Assembly (NCBI GenBank): GCA_033391075.1 | Contig: JAWPMV010000001.1 | Coordinates: forward strand, 6,510,001-6,574,000 | Direction: 5' to 3' | DNA length: 64,000 nt | Source of the DNA: Bacteroidia bacterium | GTDB lineage: Bacteria; Bacteroidota; Bacteroidia; J057 | In this document: one piece after another, positions 1 through 55,445 of the stretch | Numbering within the stretch: the stretch's first letter is position 1 | Layout: every line of letters starts with the position of its first letter | The notes under the pieces: model-generated | Database searches by the model: none | What the model was told of the DNA's origin: nothing | Seen by the model: the letters and a program-made list of their open reading frames with translations, nothing else | Made by a program: the position numbers and the translations under genes

Positions 1-783
1 CAATTCTTTTTCCAAATGATCGAAATGCAGAGAAGACAAAGCGGTCGCCCAATCCAGGGTTTCCGCAACCCCCGGAACTTTCTCCAATTTCATCTGTCGT
101 AGTTCCTGCATAAAGCGACAAATCTGATCTGCCAGTTGAGTATCTATTTGAGGAACTTTACTCTTGACAATTGCCAGCTCTTTTTCATAGCTGGGATAAT
201 CGACATAGAGGTAAAGACATCTTCTTCTCAAAGCTTCAGAAAGTTCTCTTACTCGATTGCTTGTGACGACTACATGTGGAATATGGGTAGCCTTGACTGT
301 ACCTATTTCGGGTATACTGATTTGCCAATCCGAAAGTACTTCCAGGAGGAAGCTTTCAAATTCTTCATCTGCTCTGTCAATCTCATCTATGAGCAAAACC
401 GGTGCTTTATGATGGGTGATTGCTTGCAATAAGGGTCGCTTCAATAAAAAACTATCTCCGAAGATGGTATCCTCCTTTTCCTCAAGACTCTTTTTGCTCT
501 GCTCTTCCATTTTGATGTAGAGCAATTGCCGCTGATAATTCCACTCATACAATGCCTGTGTAGCATCCAGACCTTCATAGCATTGCAGACGAATCAGATC
601 TGTATCCAGGGCATGAGCCATAACCTTGGCTATTTCTGTTTTTCCTACTCCTGCAGGGCCTTCGATGAGAATAGGTTTCCCCAATTGCATCCCCAGGAAA
701 ACAGACATGACAATACTGGGATCGCTGATGTAGCCTTCTTGAGCGAGCAGGCTTTGCACTTTCGAATATTCAGGATGATTCAT
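1..783 (-). CDS. MoxR-family AAA+ ATPase (3' end outside window)
   Basis: The reverse strand reads open from an ATG at 783 to the left edge without a stop, giving 261 codons. It shows a Walker A motif GPAGVGKT near residue 41, Walker B LLIDEID near residue 130, a sensor-1 TSN and paired arginines (ALRRRC) after it, all typical of MoxR ATPases. MoxR proteins act as chaperone-like ATPases and usually pair with a vWA/CoxE protein encoded just downstream, which here would lie beyond the window edge. The gene diverges from the lipoprotein at 931, with 147 bp between the two starts. A second, more diverged MoxR lies at 52955-53914. The family call is firm; the substrate is unknown. Confidence 0.9.
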   Translation of the reverse strand, partial: MNHPEYSKVQSLLAQEGYISDPSIVMSVFLGMQLGKPILIEGPAGVGKTEIAKVMAHALDTDLIRLQCYEGLDATQALYEWNYQRQLLYIKMEEQSKKSLEEKEDTIFGDSFLLKRPLLQAITHHKAPVLLIDEIDRADEEFESFLLEVLSDWQISIPEIGTVKATHIPHVVVTSNRVRELSEALRRRCLYLYVDYPSYEKELAIVKSKVPQIDTQLADQICRFMQELRQMKLEKVPGVAETLDWATALSSLHFDHLEKEL

Positions 784-930: not shown

Positions 931-1716
931 ATGCGAAAGCATCTTACTTCCAGCATCCTCCTTTTAGCACTTTCTCTTTTATTTCTCTTTTCTTGTGGGA
1001 ATAAAAAAGAGGCACAGACTGAAAAAAACGAACCGCTTGAAACGGAAGCGAAAAAGCCGAAAGCCGAAAAAAAGCCCAGGCCTCATCCCTATGAAAAGGA
1101 AATGAAAAAATGGGCAAGTTATGATGGACTTCTAAGTTCTTGTGAAGGGTCGAAACTCAATCTGGCCATCCCGGTAAATATCATTGCTGCCAATATCAGT
1201 AAAGACTCCCTGCAATATAATGTGGAACCTTTTTCTGATTGCTCCGGGGTATTTCTACGCTTTCTCGATAGCCTGGAAATTCGTTGTCCCAAAATGGATT
1301 ATCCCGATCCGGCGAGTTATCGGGATTCCCGCGCTTTGGCCAGGTGGTATCATGAAACGGGCAAATTGATCCGCGTAGAAGAGCCCTTGAATATGGCTCA
1401 GTATATCAAGCCAGGCAGTGTGATGTTTTATGGGGGTAGGGGAGTAGAAAATAAAGAACTCAGTTTGGATGACCTATTTGCGCATGGAGGAATCAACCAT
1501 GTAGGGGTGGTTACAGAGGTAGAAGAAAAAGGAGGGGAAATCGTGGGCTATTCTTTATTTCATGGACAAAGGCCGGGAAAGCTGGCTTCAACTACCAAGT
1601 ATCATAAAAGAGAATATAGAAATCGTCCCAATTATCCGGCATATGGAAATGGAACTGAGCAATGGGTAGCAGTTGCTCCGATTGTAGATACGGATGGAAA
1701 GGTGTTTGGGAAATAA
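931..1716 (+). CDS. NlpC/P60-like cysteine peptidase-type lipoprotein
   Basis: A 261-residue lipoprotein with a hydrophobic leader and a lipobox LFSC (Cys22), followed by a Lys/Glu/Pro-rich linker to about residue 60. The globular part has DCSG (Cys104), a YIKPGSVMFYGG strand, INHVGVV (His190) and SLFHGQRPG (His211). This is the order of Cys and His motifs in NlpC/P60 or CHAP-type hydrolases, so a role in cutting cell-wall peptides is inferred. The same domain, with identical landmark phrases, forms the C-terminus of the 1380-residue protein at 48772-52914, where the Cys and the first His are replaced. It ends in a convergent arrangement with the hydrolase at 1809. The exact family and substrate are not certain. 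Confidence 0.7.
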   Translation: MRKHLTSSILLLALSLLFLFSCGNKKEAQTEKNEPLETEAKKPKAEKKPRPHPYEKEMKKWASYDGLLSSCEGSKLNLAIPVNIIAANISKDSLQYNVEPFSDCSGVFLRFLDSLEIRCPKMDYPDPASYRDSRALARWYHETGKLIRVEEPLNMAQYIKPGSVMFYGGRGVENKELSLDDLFAHGGINHVGVVTEVEEKGGEIVGYSLFHGQRPGKLASTTKYHKREYRNRPNYPAYGNGTEQWVAVAPIVDTDGKVFGK

Positions 1717-48771: not shown

Positions 48772-51700
48772 TCATTTGCCACAATCATTTGTGTTGTTGT
48801 CAGTATAGGCCGAATCTTCAAGTGGAATAATCGGTGCAAGCGCTAAGCATTGACTATTCAAGTATCCATATGCCAAATGATCTCCCCCTTCATTATCTCT
48901 ACTTTGATAGGTGATTTTAGCAATCATTCCTGGACGCTGGGCATGAAAAAGGCCATAGCTTATCACATTCCCTTGCTCATCTTTTTCTACCGAACATACC
49001 ACCCCTAATTGCGTCAGTCCCCTTCTCCTAAAGAGTTTAGTCCTAGACATATCCCTTAAATCTTCTCCCTTTCCTCCAAAAAACATCAGGACACCAGGTT
49101 TAATATATTTTGAAGCAGAAAGAGGATCATCTATCATTACCAGCTGCCCTCGTTCGCAGTACCATTTTGCAATTTCTCCAATCTCTCTGTCTTCAGTTGA
49201 ATCAGGGAACTCTTTGTTTGGGAACCATGCTGGTTTTTTAAGTTCAGCTATCACCCTGTGCATGATGCCAGCAGGATCTGCTAAAGTAGTAGTCCCCAGA
49301 TATCTGAGTGAATCTGAGGTGATTTTATGGGCAATAATATTGAGGGGTTCACTTAGGTTGATTTCTCGTGCTCCCTGCTTAACTCTCAATCCATCTTTAT
49401 TCGATCGCCAGAATTCAATTTTTTCCTGAGAAAGGGAAAGCTGCGAACTCTCATCTTTTTTCAAATTACTCAAGAAATGCAGTAAACTACTTACCAGTTC
49501 TTCATCTTCCAATACTCCCTTGAGATCTTTTTCCGTAGGGGGATTATTATCATAATAAGCAGGATCGTATTTGAGAATGGTTTTATTTATATTTTTAGCT
49601 GCATCCTCATCCCCGGTCAATAACTTACTGAAACCATAAGCATGTGCAACTTCTAAAAATAATGGCTGAAAAATATCAAGGTTTGCTTTCCGTAAATCTG
49701 TGCTCAAGAGACTATATGCCAAACTAAGGTTATCTTTAGCCAGAGAAAACTGACTTTGATTAAAAGCTTCTATTCCTCGGTTATAGGAAATCATAGCCAA
49801 AAGGTTTCTCCCGGCAATAGGATAACTATAATTGAATAAAAAAGCTGGTATCAGGCCTTCTTTCCCTTTGGCTTCTTTAAAACCCACCAATTCAAAATCG
49901 TCAATATATTCCTCCCCTCCCAGGTAAATTTGACTTCTATCAAAACTCATTAACAAAGCATCATCAAACTCTTCCACAGATTTTATACTATCCAGATTTG
50001 CCAGTCGCTCATCCATATAAATCCCAAAATCAAGCTTTCGTTCTTCTTCTCCCTCCACTTTAATGTCTATAGGCCAGTAAGGAATTCTACTTGCCTCCTC
50101 CAAACTTATCTCACGACCCAGAAATTCTAAAAGATCATGGTGCCTAAACTGCATAGCAGAATAAAAATCCTTTCTAGCCTGAAGCATATCTCCTCTTTTG
50201 AAAGCTTCCACCCCTCTATTATTCATATATGAAGCGTCATCAAGTGTCTTCAATCTTTCAGTCAATATTCCGTTCAATCCGTATTTATAGGAAAAGTCTT
50301 TGAGTAAGTGAGATCCACTAAAAATTTTATCAAGCTTGTAGGTACCAATGGCAACCAAAAAGCCCAATAGTAAAGCCTTCAATAAAGTGCGCATAGGCGT
50401 GATTACCTCAAATCGTGTTTGGAGATATTTATCTGAACTTTCTCCCCTCAATTGAGCTGATTTCTTATGCAATCTTTCCTCTACTACTGGATCAAGAATC
50501 TCATTTTTCCTCCAAAGCACATACATTTTTCGAGCAATTTCTTCATCTCCCGGTTCGGTAAGGAATTTGTTGCTGATTTGCTGAATGGCAAGTTTTCTCC
50601 CTGCAAGAGAATCTTCCTTTACTCCCACCTGATCCAAAAGCTCCAGAATGGTTTTTCTGGCCAAATGTTCTGTCTCGGGCTTCAAGGTAGCCAATAGTTC
50701 ACGCCTTAAACCCGGAGAAACCAGGCCCGTTTGCATCCAGGGAATACGTGCCAATCTTAAAAAGGTGTCATAGGTTTGCAGGTATTCATTTCCCGTCCTG
50801 ATGGAAAGCGTTTTGGCCATTGAGAGACTTACTTCCCATGAGGGCAATGGATATACCATGCAAGCAGCCAGCAACTCAAAATGAGAATCCCCAAGGAATA
50901 GTCTAAGATCTTCCAATTGATTAAAGTCATAGTCCCTCAAAGACTCCTGCGGATTGGGCGCGTATTCTTCTGATAGTTTTAAATAGGACTCGTAACCTTC
51001 TATCTCTTCATTTGTAAACAACTCAGGAAGCAATTGCTGAGCGCCTAATTCAGCCGACAATAAATAGAAATACTCAGATAAGCATTTTTCTTTATACCCC
51101 CAATCGGCAACAAGCTTGGGAGTTATAATTGCTGATTTCCCTTTCCAAACACTCAGTTGAGTTTTTACCCAATCTTTGATCTTTGCTTCATAAGGATCTA
51201 TCAGATTTTCCCCATCTGAATAAATAAGCAGACGGTGACCTCTATATTTCTGTTGGATTTGCTCAATTCGAATTCCTTCAGCAAAGTCCTCATTCCAACA
51301 GATTCGCATATCCCGATCAAAGTAAAATACCTCCAGGACTACATCTTCTCCTTTCAGCATTTGGACTAATCTCGAGAATAAGCGAGCGGTATGACTTTGG
51401 GGATGAATCTGTTCTATAAAAATGACATACTCAGAAGCTTTTGAGGTTTGGAGAAAACGTAAGTTCACCAAGCCGAGGGAACGCGCGGTATCTCGTATGG
51501 TTGTTTTGATATCAAATTTTTGTCGATCTCCTAAACTCCGCTGCCTCATAGCATTCGCCAATGAAAACACCTTGGGATCATGAGATATCAAATGATCGAG
51601 TTCAGGAAATGGAATCTCTACCGGGCCTTCAGAAATAGATCCTCGGTCCAGGTTATACGTTTGGAGTAATTTTTTTCTTTTTCGTCTGAGTCGAAATTTA

Positions 51701-52914
51701 TCTATGAGAAAGACCAATCCTAAAGCAAGAAAAATGGGCATAAATCTCACCCATAATGACAGGCCATATTCTTTATCACCTGCGGGATCTAGACTCATCG
51801 AAGCAGGGTTTAGGAAGAATATACTCTTTTCTTCTGGAATGAGTGTAAGTTGAAAAGTCGTATCAATTTTCTTACATAAGTCACTAGGTTTATCCTTTAA
51901 AAAAGCCTCGGCACTGATTATGTATGTTCCCCTATTTCTAAAAGTGTAGCTTGGCTCTCTTAGTTTTGTTCCATTTACGGACCAGTTTACCTCATATTCT
52001 TCCCAATCTGGAGGAATCCCCAGGGAAAAATTTATTTTTTTATTTATGATCTGCGCACTATTTGAAGAATGTTTCGGTCGGATGTTCAACTTGGATAGTT
52101 GGACCTTCTTCTCTGCGCTACAAACGACCTTGATCGAACGAATCTCTTCGGGCATATTTCCACCTACACCATCGATATTACTCAAGCTAACCAGATACGT
52201 ACCTTCCTGGAAAAAAACATACCGAAACTCTTTGCTCTCCTTTGTTTGAAGGCTATCAACAATAAGGCTGTCGCCAAGATTTATTTTCCATAAAAACTGC
52301 TGGATCTCTCTTTGTAAATCTAAGCTTTTCATCCCTTGGCCTCTTACAGAAAGAAGTGAACTTGTATTTCTAAAAACAATTGTATCCCCTACAAAAACCG
52401 TATCATTAAATTCCATTTCAGGGGCTTGATTAATGTTTGAAATAGAAAAGTTTGGTTGTAAGGGATTCTGGTCCCAACCAAAGAATCTCTCCAAATTGGG
52501 CAATAGAAGGAAAATACCCACTGAGAGAAGTAAAACCACGACTCCCACCCAGGAGAGTATCCACCTGGATATTGAGGTTAGCCATCTGACCCTCGGATCC
52601 ACTTGTATATGCCCATCCTGCAAATGTGGGTCTTCGATATTAAATAGGCGCTGATTTACACTGGGTTTAACTACCAATTGGATGTACTCATCAAATACCC
52701 GATCGAAGGTACGCGTTCCATCCTGGGTAAAAACCAAAATGGGTGCAAGGATATTTCTCAGCTTTTCCGGTTCCTTTAAATAATCTTTTCCTAGCTCTTT
52801 TAGTACTTTTTGAAGCCTCAGGTGCTGATCTATACCAAAAGTAAAGCCCTCCCTTTCCAACCTCAGCAATAAGGTCTCCAATGGAAAAAAGTGGGAAGTG
52901 TTTTGGTCTGACAT
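48772..52914 (-). CDS. 1380-residue three-pass membrane protein: CoxE-like N-terminus, PKD-like, vWA-like, TPR-like, inactive NlpC/P60-like
   Basis: The protein reads in order: residues 10-90 a helical domain resembling the N-terminus of CoxE-like vWA proteins; TM1 at about 118-138; residues about 153-360 two PKD/Ig-like beta domains; TM2 at about 388-405; residues about 480-600 a vWA-like Rossmann fold (EYVIFIEQIH replaces the DxSxS metal motif, then LIYSDGEN); a helical region to about 835; TM3 at about 842-857; TPR-like helices at about 895-1130; and an NlpC/P60-like domain at 1180-1362. In the last domain Pro1214 replaces the Cys and Gln1302 the His of the lipoprotein at 931, while FHAQRPG is kept. 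With the N-terminus inside, PKD and the last two parts are periplasmic and the vWA part is cytoplasmic beside MoxR. It is the third gene of a CHAT-MoxR-giant operon, 40 bp after MoxR. It fits a vWA-MoxR associated protein and is likely to be the envelope sensor. Confidence 0.7.
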   Translation of the reverse strand: MSDQNTSHFFPLETLLLRLEREGFTFGIDQHLRLQKVLKELGKDYLKEPEKLRNILAPILVFTQDGTRTFDRVFDEYIQLVVKPSVNQRLFNIEDPHLQDGHIQVDPRVRWLTSISRWILSWVGVVVLLLSVGIFLLLPNLERFFGWDQNPLQPNFSISNINQAPEMEFNDTVFVGDTIVFRNTSSLLSVRGQGMKSLDLQREIQQFLWKINLGDSLIVDSLQTKESKEFRYVFFQEGTYLVSLSNIDGVGGNMPEEIRSIKVVCSAEKKVQLSKLNIRPKHSSNSAQIINKKINFSLGIPPDWEEYEVNWSVNGTKLREPSYTFRNRGTYIISAEAFLKDKPSDLCKKIDTTFQLTLIPEEKSIFFLNPASMSLDPAGDKEYGLSLWVRFMPIFLALGLVFLIDKFRLRRKRKKLLQTYNLDRGSISEGPVEIPFPELDHLISHDPKVFSLANAMRQRSLGDRQKFDIKTTIRDTARSLGLVNLRFLQTSKASEYVIFIEQIHPQSHTARLFSRLVQMLKGEDVVLEVFYFDRDMRICWNEDFAEGIRIEQIQQKYRGHRLLIYSDGENLIDPYEAKIKDWVKTQLSVWKGKSAIITPKLVADWGYKEKCLSEYFYLLSAELGAQQLLPELFTNEEIEGYESYLKLSEEYAPNPQESLRDYDFNQLEDLRLFLGDSHFELLAACMVYPLPSWEVSLSMAKTLSIRTGNEYLQTYDTFLRLARIPWMQTGLVSPGLRRELLATLKPETEHLARKTILELLDQVGVKEDSLAGRKLAIQQISNKFLTEPGDEEIARKMYVLWRKNEILDPVVEERLHKKSAQLRGESSDKYLQTRFEVITPMRTLLKALLLGFLVAIGTYKLDKIFSGSHLLKDFSYKYGLNGILTERLKTLDDASYMNNRGVEAFKRGDMLQARKDFYSAMQFRHHDLLEFLGREISLEEASRIPYWPIDIKVEGEEERKLDFGIYMDERLANLDSIKSVEEFDDALLMSFDRSQIYLGGEEYIDDFELVGFKEAKGKEGLIPAFLFNYSYPIAGRNLLAMISYNRGIEAFNQSQFSLAKDNLSLAYSLLSTDLRKANLDIFQPLFLEVAHAYGFSKLLTGDEDAAKNINKTILKYDPAYYDNNPPTEKDLKGVLEDEELVSSLLHFLSNLKKDESSQLSLSQEKIEFWRSNKDGLRVKQGAREINLSEPLNIIAHKITSDSLRYLGTTTLADPAGIMHRVIAELKKPAWFPNKEFPDSTEDREIGEIAKWYCERGQLVMIDDPLSASKYIKPGVLMFFGGKGEDLRDMSRTKLFRRRGLTQLGVVCSVEKDEQGNVISYGLFHAQRPGMIAKITYQSRDNEGGDHLAYGYLNSQCLALAPIIPLEDSAYTDNNTNDCGK

Positions 52915-52954
52915 AAAATTAAATGGGAATCACAGAAAGAGATTCTCGGCCCGA

Positions 52955-53914
52955 TTACATAAATTCCTGTTCTAAAATCTTCAAATCATCTTTATCCTTT
53001 GCGAGAACCGAATAACTAAAACGCAGTAACTTCTTTTGCTCATCGGAAAGGTTTGCCAGGCTTTTATTTTGATTCAAAAATTGTTCTGATTCCAGCATCC
53101 GCAACCAGGCAATCAACTCAGCAGTTGCCGGTCTTTTCTTCTTCACCATTTCCCGGATTTTCAAAAAATGATTGACCAAGGCACTATCCGCATATTGCGA
53201 ATCTTCTCCTAATTGTGTCCTGACGATCTCTAGCAGCTGTTCTTTTCCGGGAAAGGGGATATGATAGAAAACACATCTCCGTAGAAAGGCAGCAGGTAAA
53301 TTCTTCTCCGAATTACTGGTCATGATGATGATAGGCCGAAAATTTTGACCCGCCATTACCTCCTTGCCCAATTCTTTTATCCGGAAAGACATATGCTCGA
53401 TTTCATACAAGATATCATTGGGGAAATCGGTGGGAGCTTTATCAATCTCATCAACCAGGACTACTGAGTGCCTGGCTTCTCCTTCGAATCCTTTGCAAAT
53501 ACTCTTATCCGCCAATAGATCAGGATTGCTTAAGGCTATCGCTTTCCCAAGGGCCTGAAGCTCTATATACTCTGAGGTATCTTTCTCCTGATTCCCTTTG
53601 ATATTGGCATCCTGAAAATGCCGCACAGCATCGTAGGTATAGAAGAGATCCTGGGCACTAGATGTGGTTTTGGTATTGAAGATAAATGGCCGGCATTCTC
53701 CCTTATCATTTTTCAGTTGAAAGTGATGGGCGATTTTAAATGCCAATTGGGTTTTTCCTGTACCAGGCTCACCCGTGATAAATAAAGGTTGTCCCAGGGT
53801 CATCGCCACCTTCACCGCGCTGACCAATTCTTCAGATAAAATGTATTTATCCGGATCATTATATTTTGCCTTGATCTGGCTTATACTGGGTATTTCAAAA
53901 CTAAAGTTTGCCAC
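52955..53914 (-). CDS. MoxR-family AAA+ ATPase of the conflict operon
   Basis: A 319-residue ATPase with Walker A GEPGTGKT near residue 48, Walker B VVLVDEIDKA near 151, sensor 1 MTSNSEKNLP near 198 and an arginine pair in FLRRCVF. It belongs to the same broad family as the ATPase at 1-783 but has a longer insert before Walker B (about residues 75-145) and is clearly a separate branch. MoxR ATPases remodel vWA partners; here the partner would be the vWA-like segment of the giant protein encoded 40 bp downstream. The CHAT gene ends 31 bp upstream. The three genes form one transcription unit. Confidence 0.93.
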   Translation of the reverse strand: MANFSFEIPSISQIKAKYNDPDKYILSEELVSAVKVAMTLGQPLFITGEPGTGKTQLAFKIAHHFQLKNDKGECRPFIFNTKTTSSAQDLFYTYDAVRHFQDANIKGNQEKDTSEYIELQALGKAIALSNPDLLADKSICKGFEGEARHSVVLVDEIDKAPTDFPNDILYEIEHMSFRIKELGKEVMAGQNFRPIIIMTSNSEKNLPAAFLRRCVFYHIPFPGKEQLLEIVRTQLGEDSQYADSALVNHFLKIREMVKKKRPATAELIAWLRMLESEQFLNQNKSLANLSDEQKKLLRFSYSVLAKDKDDLKILEQEFM

Positions 53915-53945
53915 AGGTTCGTGTTTATTTTTATCTGTATTCTTC

Positions 53946-55445
53946 TTATTGGTTAAATTCTTCGATGATGCGCTCCAGTTTTTTTTCCACTTTGCTCATC
54001 GGCAATTTCTCTTTCTCTGGAAAATATTTTTCCATGAGTTCTTGTTTTCTATCATAATCATCTGTCAGCCTATCCATCCACTTGCTCAAATCTTTGGGTA
54101 AAACAGGAGGCAATTCCGGCAGGGGCCGAACATCCACAAAATCATTTACCGTTTTCCGAACTTTGGCAGCTGGATTTCTTCCCAATAGGGCCTTGAATTT
54201 CCCCTTTGACTCATTGTCATAGACAATATTGGCAAAGACGATAAAGTCAGGAGCATGATTGGGCAATCGAGAGCTATCACAAAACTTTCTAATCACCCAG
54301 TTCAGATATTTTCGAGTAAAAGGCTTCCACTCTGAACTATAAATCCTGAACATCAAAACGATGCAATCAACCTCTCTGGCAATTTTGGATTTAGCCAGGG
54401 TTTCGATATTCAGTTCTCCCGGATAATGATTGGGATTGAGTTCAAGGGCCCTGAAAAAAGCGCTTACCGCATTCATTTTAGCATCTTCATAATTAGCCGC
54501 CTCTTCCTGGGCAATAATCTTATGAAAGTAGCGCTCATAGGTCGGGGCTATATGCTCTAAAACAAAGCGATTGAATAAACCATTCGGAGATTGTTCCTCC
54601 GCTCCATGGATTACATAAAATTGAAACTTGCTGGCACTCCTGTTTTTGATAAACTGAGACCTAAATCGGGAATTCTGATCCGCTCTGTCACAGGTATATT
54701 TATCTCGGATACTGAATTGCTCTTTTTCTTCTTTCTCCTGAGGGAGCTTCCAGTCCAGGACTCTCTCGTGATCCGGATGAAAGTAGAGTCCCCAGGGCAA
54801 TTCATCCTTCTTCGTTTCTTTCCCCTTAAAGGTGATTTTTCTATAAGGCAGCGGCTGATCCAGGCTCAGCTTGTATTTAGTTTCCAAAAAGATCCGAGCC
54901 CGGTCAAAAGAATCGCGAATGCTTATTCCGGAACTCAGGTTTTGATAAAAACGATCTGCAAAGTCATAGGCCATATCATCCCTGATAGGTTCCGAGGTAG
55001 CGATTACTGCCTTCACCCCATTATCCAGCAATAGTTCCAATTGGGGGAGGGTAGAGCAGCCATTGAGGAAAACCAGCTTTAAAGAGGGAAGGCTACCCAA
55101 TAGTTTTGCCAGGCCCTCCGCTTTAGCTTCCTGCATATCTCCTTTATGAGAAGTAAGCATTAAGCCTCCGCCTTCTGCATGTCCTCCATAATGGAAGAGG
55201 ATGATTTCTTTTTTATTACTCCAGGCTTCTACCGTATTGAATACCTGATCCAGACTTGCATTATTGAGCTGATCCAGGTTGCATTTATCATCTATCTCAT
55301 AGGGAATCAGGTGCCGGTAGACACTTTCAGCTTCCTTATTGAGCCAGGGGAGATAGGCCTCGGGAACAGAGGAAGGATTGGCAAAAGTAAGTAGTATGAC
55401 AGGTTTGTGAGCAGACAAAACAAGAACAAGTACTTCCGAGTGCAA
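53946..55445 (-). CDS. CHAT caspase-like protease with probable inactive-STAND domain
   Basis: A 499-residue soluble protein if translation starts at the TTG at 55445. No ATG lies in frame before the stop at 55473-55475; a second TTG at 55418 (giving MSAHKPVILLTFANP) fits the fold start better. Residues about 12-220 are a CHAT protease with His89 in HYGGHA and Cys130 in FLNGC, both catalytic residues present. Residues about 250-400 look like the inactive STAND domain seen with such proteases: CDRADQ near 252, then FYVIHGAEEQSPNGLFNRF, in place of a P-loop. The C-terminal 100 residues are charged and helical. CHAT proteases in immune systems cut a partner when a trigger is sensed, often causing cell death. 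It is the first gene of the operon. Confidence 0.75.
   Translation of the reverse strand: MHSEVLVLVLSAHKPVILLTFANPSSVPEAYLPWLNKEAESVYRHLIPYEIDDKCNLDQLNNASLDQVFNTVEAWSNKKEIILFHYGGHAEGGGLMLTSHKGDMQEAKAEGLAKLLGSLPSLKLVFLNGCSTLPQLELLLDNGVKAVIATSEPIRDDMAYDFADRFYQNLSSGISIRDSFDRARIFLETKYKLSLDQPLPYRKITFKGKETKKDELPWGLYFHPDHERVLDWKLPQEKEEKEQFSIRDKYTCDRADQNSRFRSQFIKNRSASKFQFYVIHGAEEQSPNGLFNRFVLEHIAPTYERYFHKIIAQEEAANYEDAKMNAVSAFFRALELNPNHYPGELNIETLAKSKIAREVDCIVLMFRIYSSEWKPFTRKYLNWVIRKFCDSSRLPNHAPDFIVFANIVYDNESKGKFKALLGRNPAAKVRKTVNDFVDVRPLPELPPVLPKDLSKWMDRLTDDYDRKQELMEKYFPEKEKLPMSKVEKKLERIIEEFNQ

Follow-up and report, generated by a model that had tools for sequence, protein, structure and literature searches.

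The window analysed here, a stretch of 64,000 nucleotides from the 9.49 Mb genome of a member of the Bacteroidota (G000:C1:6510001-6574000), contains on its minus strand three neighbouring genes which encode a CHAT (caspase-like) protease fused to an inactive STAND (iSTAND) domain, a MoxR-type AAA+ ATPase and a giant membrane protein with a vWA domain. The open reading frames extend from 55445 to 53946, from 53914 to 52955 and from 52914 to 48772, and their coordinates, with intergenic gaps of 31 and 40 bp, bear out the three-gene minus-strand operon put forward in the original prediction, which had been made from the letters of this stretch alone.

For the CHAT-iSTAND protein (53946..55415, minus strand) two TTG start codons come into question, one at 55415 giving 489 residues and one at 55445 giving 499 residues. 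The TTG at 55415 is probably the true start, since the nearest orthologues begin with MSxHKPV or MSRRPV. The CHAT domain (54846..55403, minus strand; Pfam CHAT, 5.4e-8) and the iSTAND domain (54225..54698, minus strand; Pfam PF19995, 6.9e-13, 49.7 bits at a cut-off of 24) both score above the Pfam cut-off. The catalytic residues of the protease, His85 (55191-55193) and Cys130 (55056-55058; numbering from 55445), are invariant, as is Gly88, in 14 of 14 aligned relatives, and the iSTAND domain is devoid of the Walker A GKS/T P-loop. Thus, the CHAT protease with its catalytic His and Cys and the inactive STAND domain that had been predicted are both recovered. The second gene (52955..53914, minus strand) starts with GTG and encodes the expected MoxR ATPase of 319 residues (AAA_5, 1.5e-10), whose Walker A (GEPGTGKT), Walker B (LVDEIDKAP), sensor (TSNSEK) and Arg finger motifs are conserved across 11 aligned sequences.

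The third gene (48772..52914, minus strand, as are all its parts given below) encodes a protein of 1380 residues, for which Pfam returned weak matches only and detected no vWA domain. It begins with a predicted four-helix, putatively CoxE-like domain of predicted cytoplasmic location (residues 12-93; 52636..52881), followed by a first transmembrane segment (TM1, about residues 116-140; 52495..52569), two PKD/Ig-like sandwiches on the outside (residues 175-361; 51832..52392), TM2 with a basic stretch behind it (residues 387-404; 51703..51756), a CoxE-type vWA domain with IEQ..PQSH at strand 1 and SDG at strand 4 (residues 490-640; 50995..51447), TM3 (about residues 838-857; 50344..50403) and a weak TPR repeat (residues 897-924; 50143..50226; Pfam TPR_1 0.048, below cut-off). 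In the hydropathy analysis TM1 and TM2 are clear, and TM3, which is also placed by the structural model, is borderline in the giant of the window but clear in its orthologues, which upholds the three passes predicted earlier. An AlphaFold model of residues 1-860 built from eight sequences (mean predicted local distance difference test score, pLDDT, 63.7) contains the N-terminal helices, the two beta-sandwiches between TM1 and TM2, and a helical bundle preceding TM3. The helices at 12-93 are of moderate confidence (pLDDT about 56-79), and the alternating strand-helix domain at 494-640 mostly reaches pLDDT values of 70-90. Foldseek and VIA-align match the sandwiches to Ig/FN3-type folds in the PDB, and the orthologues give strong Pfam PKD matches, so the PKD-like part of the original prediction is retained. 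Such sandwiches dominated the structure matches of the whole model, in which the vWA domain was barely tested, and therefore a profile-profile comparison was used for the latter. Against a profile of bona fide CoxE vWA proteins hhalign gave P=7e-5, compared with 0.17-0.55 for MoxR, CHAT and VWF-type controls, and the alignment revealed an FD[IL]xxT[IM]R motif shared with CoxE vWA proteins just upstream of the domain, which together with the modelled fold sustains the vWA-like part. From the number of transmembrane segments and the types of domains we infer an in-out-in-out topology, in which the PKD-like and C-terminal parts would lie outside and the helical domain, the vWA domain, MoxR and CHAT-iSTAND inside, in agreement with the arrangement suggested before.

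The C-terminal end of the giant is a catalytically dead NlpC/P60-like domain (residues 1164-1367; 48814..49425). Its last approximately 200 residues share 36% identity (2.7e-40) with a lipoprotein encoded on the plus strand 47 kb away within the window (931..1716), and further relatives are encoded in five sister genomes. The lipoprotein lies outside the operon, is related to the tail by descent and carries intact DCSG and HVG motifs. Nine complete domain copies of the lipoprotein family, that of the window included, keep DCSG and H-[VIL]-[GA], an arrangement of Cys and His that is found in NlpC/P60 and CHAP amidases. In the giant the corresponding positions read DPAG and TQLG, with Pro1214 in place of the catalytic Cys and Gln1302 in place of the His. 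The 1380-residue reading frame is intact, and the idea of a pseudogene tail was dropped. As a side observation, the lipoprotein-family domain is tripled in one sister genome (L053). The tail is tentatively assigned to the NlpC/P60-CHAP family from the order of the motifs: Pfam detected no NlpC-like domain in the giant and gave weak CHAP matches only for the lipoprotein relatives (best 2e-5, in one relative), and the profile of the lipoproteins found nothing significant among PDB sequences. Of the NlpC-like part claimed originally, the kinship to lipoproteins with the NlpC/CHAP motif stands, whereas the catalytic Cys and His are lost and Pfam is silent.

The presence of an active paralogue of the tail in the same genome raises the possibility that the tail serves as a decoy or as a blocking effector, which would soak up proteins that phages or competitors direct at the active lipoprotein, and which MoxR-vWA would present or release. 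This is the reading favoured by Kaur et al. for inactive modules (PMC7159879). Their discussion takes VMAP systems as its example, and a membrane-fixed tail encoded in one operon with a protease can at least equally well be read as an input domain; we regard the decoy as unlikely. Instead, the outside tip of the giant, a dead cell-wall enzyme, probably acts as a sensor.

The comparison with other loci covered 16 distinct iSTAND genes, several of them on short contigs. A vWA giant is encoded near 12 of these 16 genes and near none of 68 loci whose CHAT protein has no iSTAND domain (Fisher p 1.6e-11, a value qualified by the relatedness and non-independence of the loci). CHAT-iSTAND, MoxR and vWA giant occur together in eight sampled loci, the window included; the nearest full set (L045) shares 55% identity in CHAT-iSTAND, 66% in MoxR and 34% in the giant. 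The original prediction had staked itself on a conserved gene order and on genuine CHAT and vWA folds, and it withstands this comparison because the three-gene layout is conserved, the trio recurring in related Bacteroidota and both folds being supported. At L032, L033, L037 and L039 the vWA giant directly follows CHAT-iSTAND, and a MoxR gene is found neither between the two nor next to them; the fragmented assembly that contains L033 (G306) gave no MoxR match at all. The host genome also encodes MoxR-vWA pairs in other surroundings: at L046 (G000:C1:2522000-2540000) MoxR is accompanied by an 863-residue PKD/vWA protein, with no CHAT or iSTAND, next to genes for DUF350, two DUF2330 and an NQR2/RnfD-like protein, and near another pair two small CHAT-domain proteins of 291 and 283 residues are encoded (L181:11906-13857).

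While the membrane core of the giants is conserved, their C-terminal tails are swapped. They comprise LamG with CBM96 (L045), FGS (L043), trypsin with FGS (L044), Amidase_3 (L172), WD40 with WG repeats (L032-L035, L037, L040 and L178) and a carboxypeptidase-regulatory domain with TPR (L042); L043, with a tail unlike that of the window giant, is the second complete set of the host genome. These tails bear on the question whether the system is an envelope housekeeping or developmental chaperone, in which MoxR-vWA would help in assembling or surveying complexes of the envelope and CHAT would be a regulated processing protease. According to PMC7159879, protein maturation is a task of MoxR-vWA pairs like CoxD-CoxE, and iSTAND is common in the family, being present in 10 of 13 genomes. 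Yet its distribution in the phylum is patchy (own genome aside, one of 394 sampled genomes), and a conflict system fits better than housekeeping because the tails are wholly different when close relatives, or paralogues within a single genome, are compared; we consider the chaperone quite unlikely. Alternatively, the tail might be a passive cell-wall anchor keeping the complex at the periplasmic face, as PEGA, OmpA, PASTA and Sel1 tails known in the class associate with peptidoglycan (PMC7159879). The lectin-like, propeller and peptidase tails found elsewhere have no obvious anchoring logic, and this explanation appears very unlikely to us.

The close relative L172, 42% identical in the vWA region and 68% in MoxR, provides independent evidence on the tails. 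Its tail matches Amidase_3 (2.3e-11). Free-standing amidases encoded in this family of genomes show GHG, SIHAN and TENGF, whereas in L172 the positions of the zinc-binding His residues and the catalytic Glu are occupied by G, Q and Y/T. Because two unrelated wall-hydrolase folds, both dead, are found behind the same core, we argue that the tail of the giant would bind rather than cut. The dead tails speak for a sensor, either of a cell-wall ligand or of the decoy type, and against an effector with enzymatic activity.

We therefore interpret the trio, with moderate confidence, as a membrane-anchored iSTAND-type MoxR-vWA ternary conflict system, in which an event at the outside tail would be relayed to release CHAT proteolysis. 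In such a system the giant would make three passes through the inner membrane, and the MoxR ring and CHAT-iSTAND would be located with the vWA domain in the cytosol. The dead NlpC-like tail would meet either a fragment of the wall or a foreign protein which normally meets or is aimed at the active lipoprotein paralogue, and the change upon binding would pass via TM3/TM2 to the vWA domain. The MoxR ring could then remodel the vWA-iSTAND contact in an ATP-dependent step, by which the iSTAND-tethered CHAT protease would be freed to cut cytosolic proteins, so that the infected or attacked cell would become dormant or die. The outcome of the proteolysis would probably be abortive, and the protease may be a suicidal one activated by envelope damage, as had been suggested for this operon. 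Since Kaur et al. place the iSTAND domain itself as the sensor of the invader (PMC8195603), the tail may supply one input out of two. Several observations weigh against this interpretation. At four iSTAND loci with a giant MoxR is not adjacent, and the three genes therefore need not stand side by side; the trypsin His/Asp/Ser triad in the tail of L044 looks intact, so the tails are not all inert; and the fold of the tail is unconfirmed by structure prediction, as the model of the C-terminal 520 residues from two sequences is unusable (mean pLDDT 44.6). More tentatively, the loci might represent a bacterial transmembrane alarm, in which various wall hydrolases were captured, silenced and reused as outside receptors that switch on CHAT via the MoxR-vWA motor, a logic that would resemble that of animal peptidoglycan-recognition proteins.

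The genes flanking the operon look unrelated to it, judged from their open reading frames: the plus strand carries an aconitase-like and a 370-residue peptidase-like gene, the minus strand one that resembles a phosphohistidine phosphatase. A further MoxR ATPase gene, truncated by the edge of the window (1-783, minus strand), was considered as a part of the CHAT-iSTAND system and rejected; it pairs with a canonical CoxE-like vWA gene just outside the window (G000:C1:6508765-6509400) as a CoxD/CoxE-type pair.

PADLOC gave no match for the giant and CHAT-iSTAND, and ATPase-type matches only for MoxR. In MADS, which comprises the AAA ATPase MadB and the VWA protein MadC, the resemblance is distant: the MoxR protein matches MadB (4.6e-20, 72 bits) far below the cut-off of 475, the vWA protein of a paralogous locus in the same genome matches MadC with 9e-6 and 25 bits at a cut-off of 600, and the operon is without other mad genes. 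TPR-CHAT/Craspase of type III-E CRISPR systems also keeps a CHAT protease under a regulatory partner (PMC9729208), but it is activated in an RNA-guided manner and works without MoxR, vWA or a membrane part. The VMAP and FtsH/beta-propeller ternary systems outlined in PMC7159879 have a similar MoxR-vWA switch, and VMAP systems have swapped, often inactive modules in the effector position; they differ in the third component, for which they have VMAP, FtsH or a protein linked to a propeller in place of iSTAND, and the trio of the window has no VMAP Pfam match. The closest counterpart is provided by the iSTAND ternary systems (Kaur et al., 2020, eLife 9:e52696, PMC7159879). According to the description given there, they consist of MoxR, a CoxE-type vWA protein with N-terminal helices and variable modules at the C-terminus, some of them wall-associated, and an iSTAND protein whose N-terminal part is of the TIR, DRHyd, caspase-like, trypsin or EAD type. 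Transmembrane segments occur in about 28% of the vWA proteins, action near membrane and cell wall was inferred, and the conflict role is a prediction. The trio shares the three components, the transmembrane CoxE-type vWA protein, the N-terminal fusion of a peptidase, here CHAT, to an inactive STAND domain as the class expects, the occurrence in Bacteroidetes and the variable tails that differ between paralogues of one genome. Because these tested structural features fit, it is a new member of this published class and not a new type of system. In the text of PMC7159879 that was searched there is no mention of PKD inserts, of amidase or NlpC tails (NlpC in the reference list only) or of CHAT under that name; the dead tails agree with the idea of captured inactive enzymes set out by Kaur et al. 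New here are the dead NlpC/P60-like periplasmic tail with its intact paralogue in the window and the dead Amidase_3 of a close relative. This adds a well-resolved membrane version to the iSTAND class and offers a concrete, testable input, as two close relatives have dead wall-hydrolase domains of two unrelated folds; should the tail be the sensor, the trigger of MoxR-vWA ternary systems becomes directly testable.
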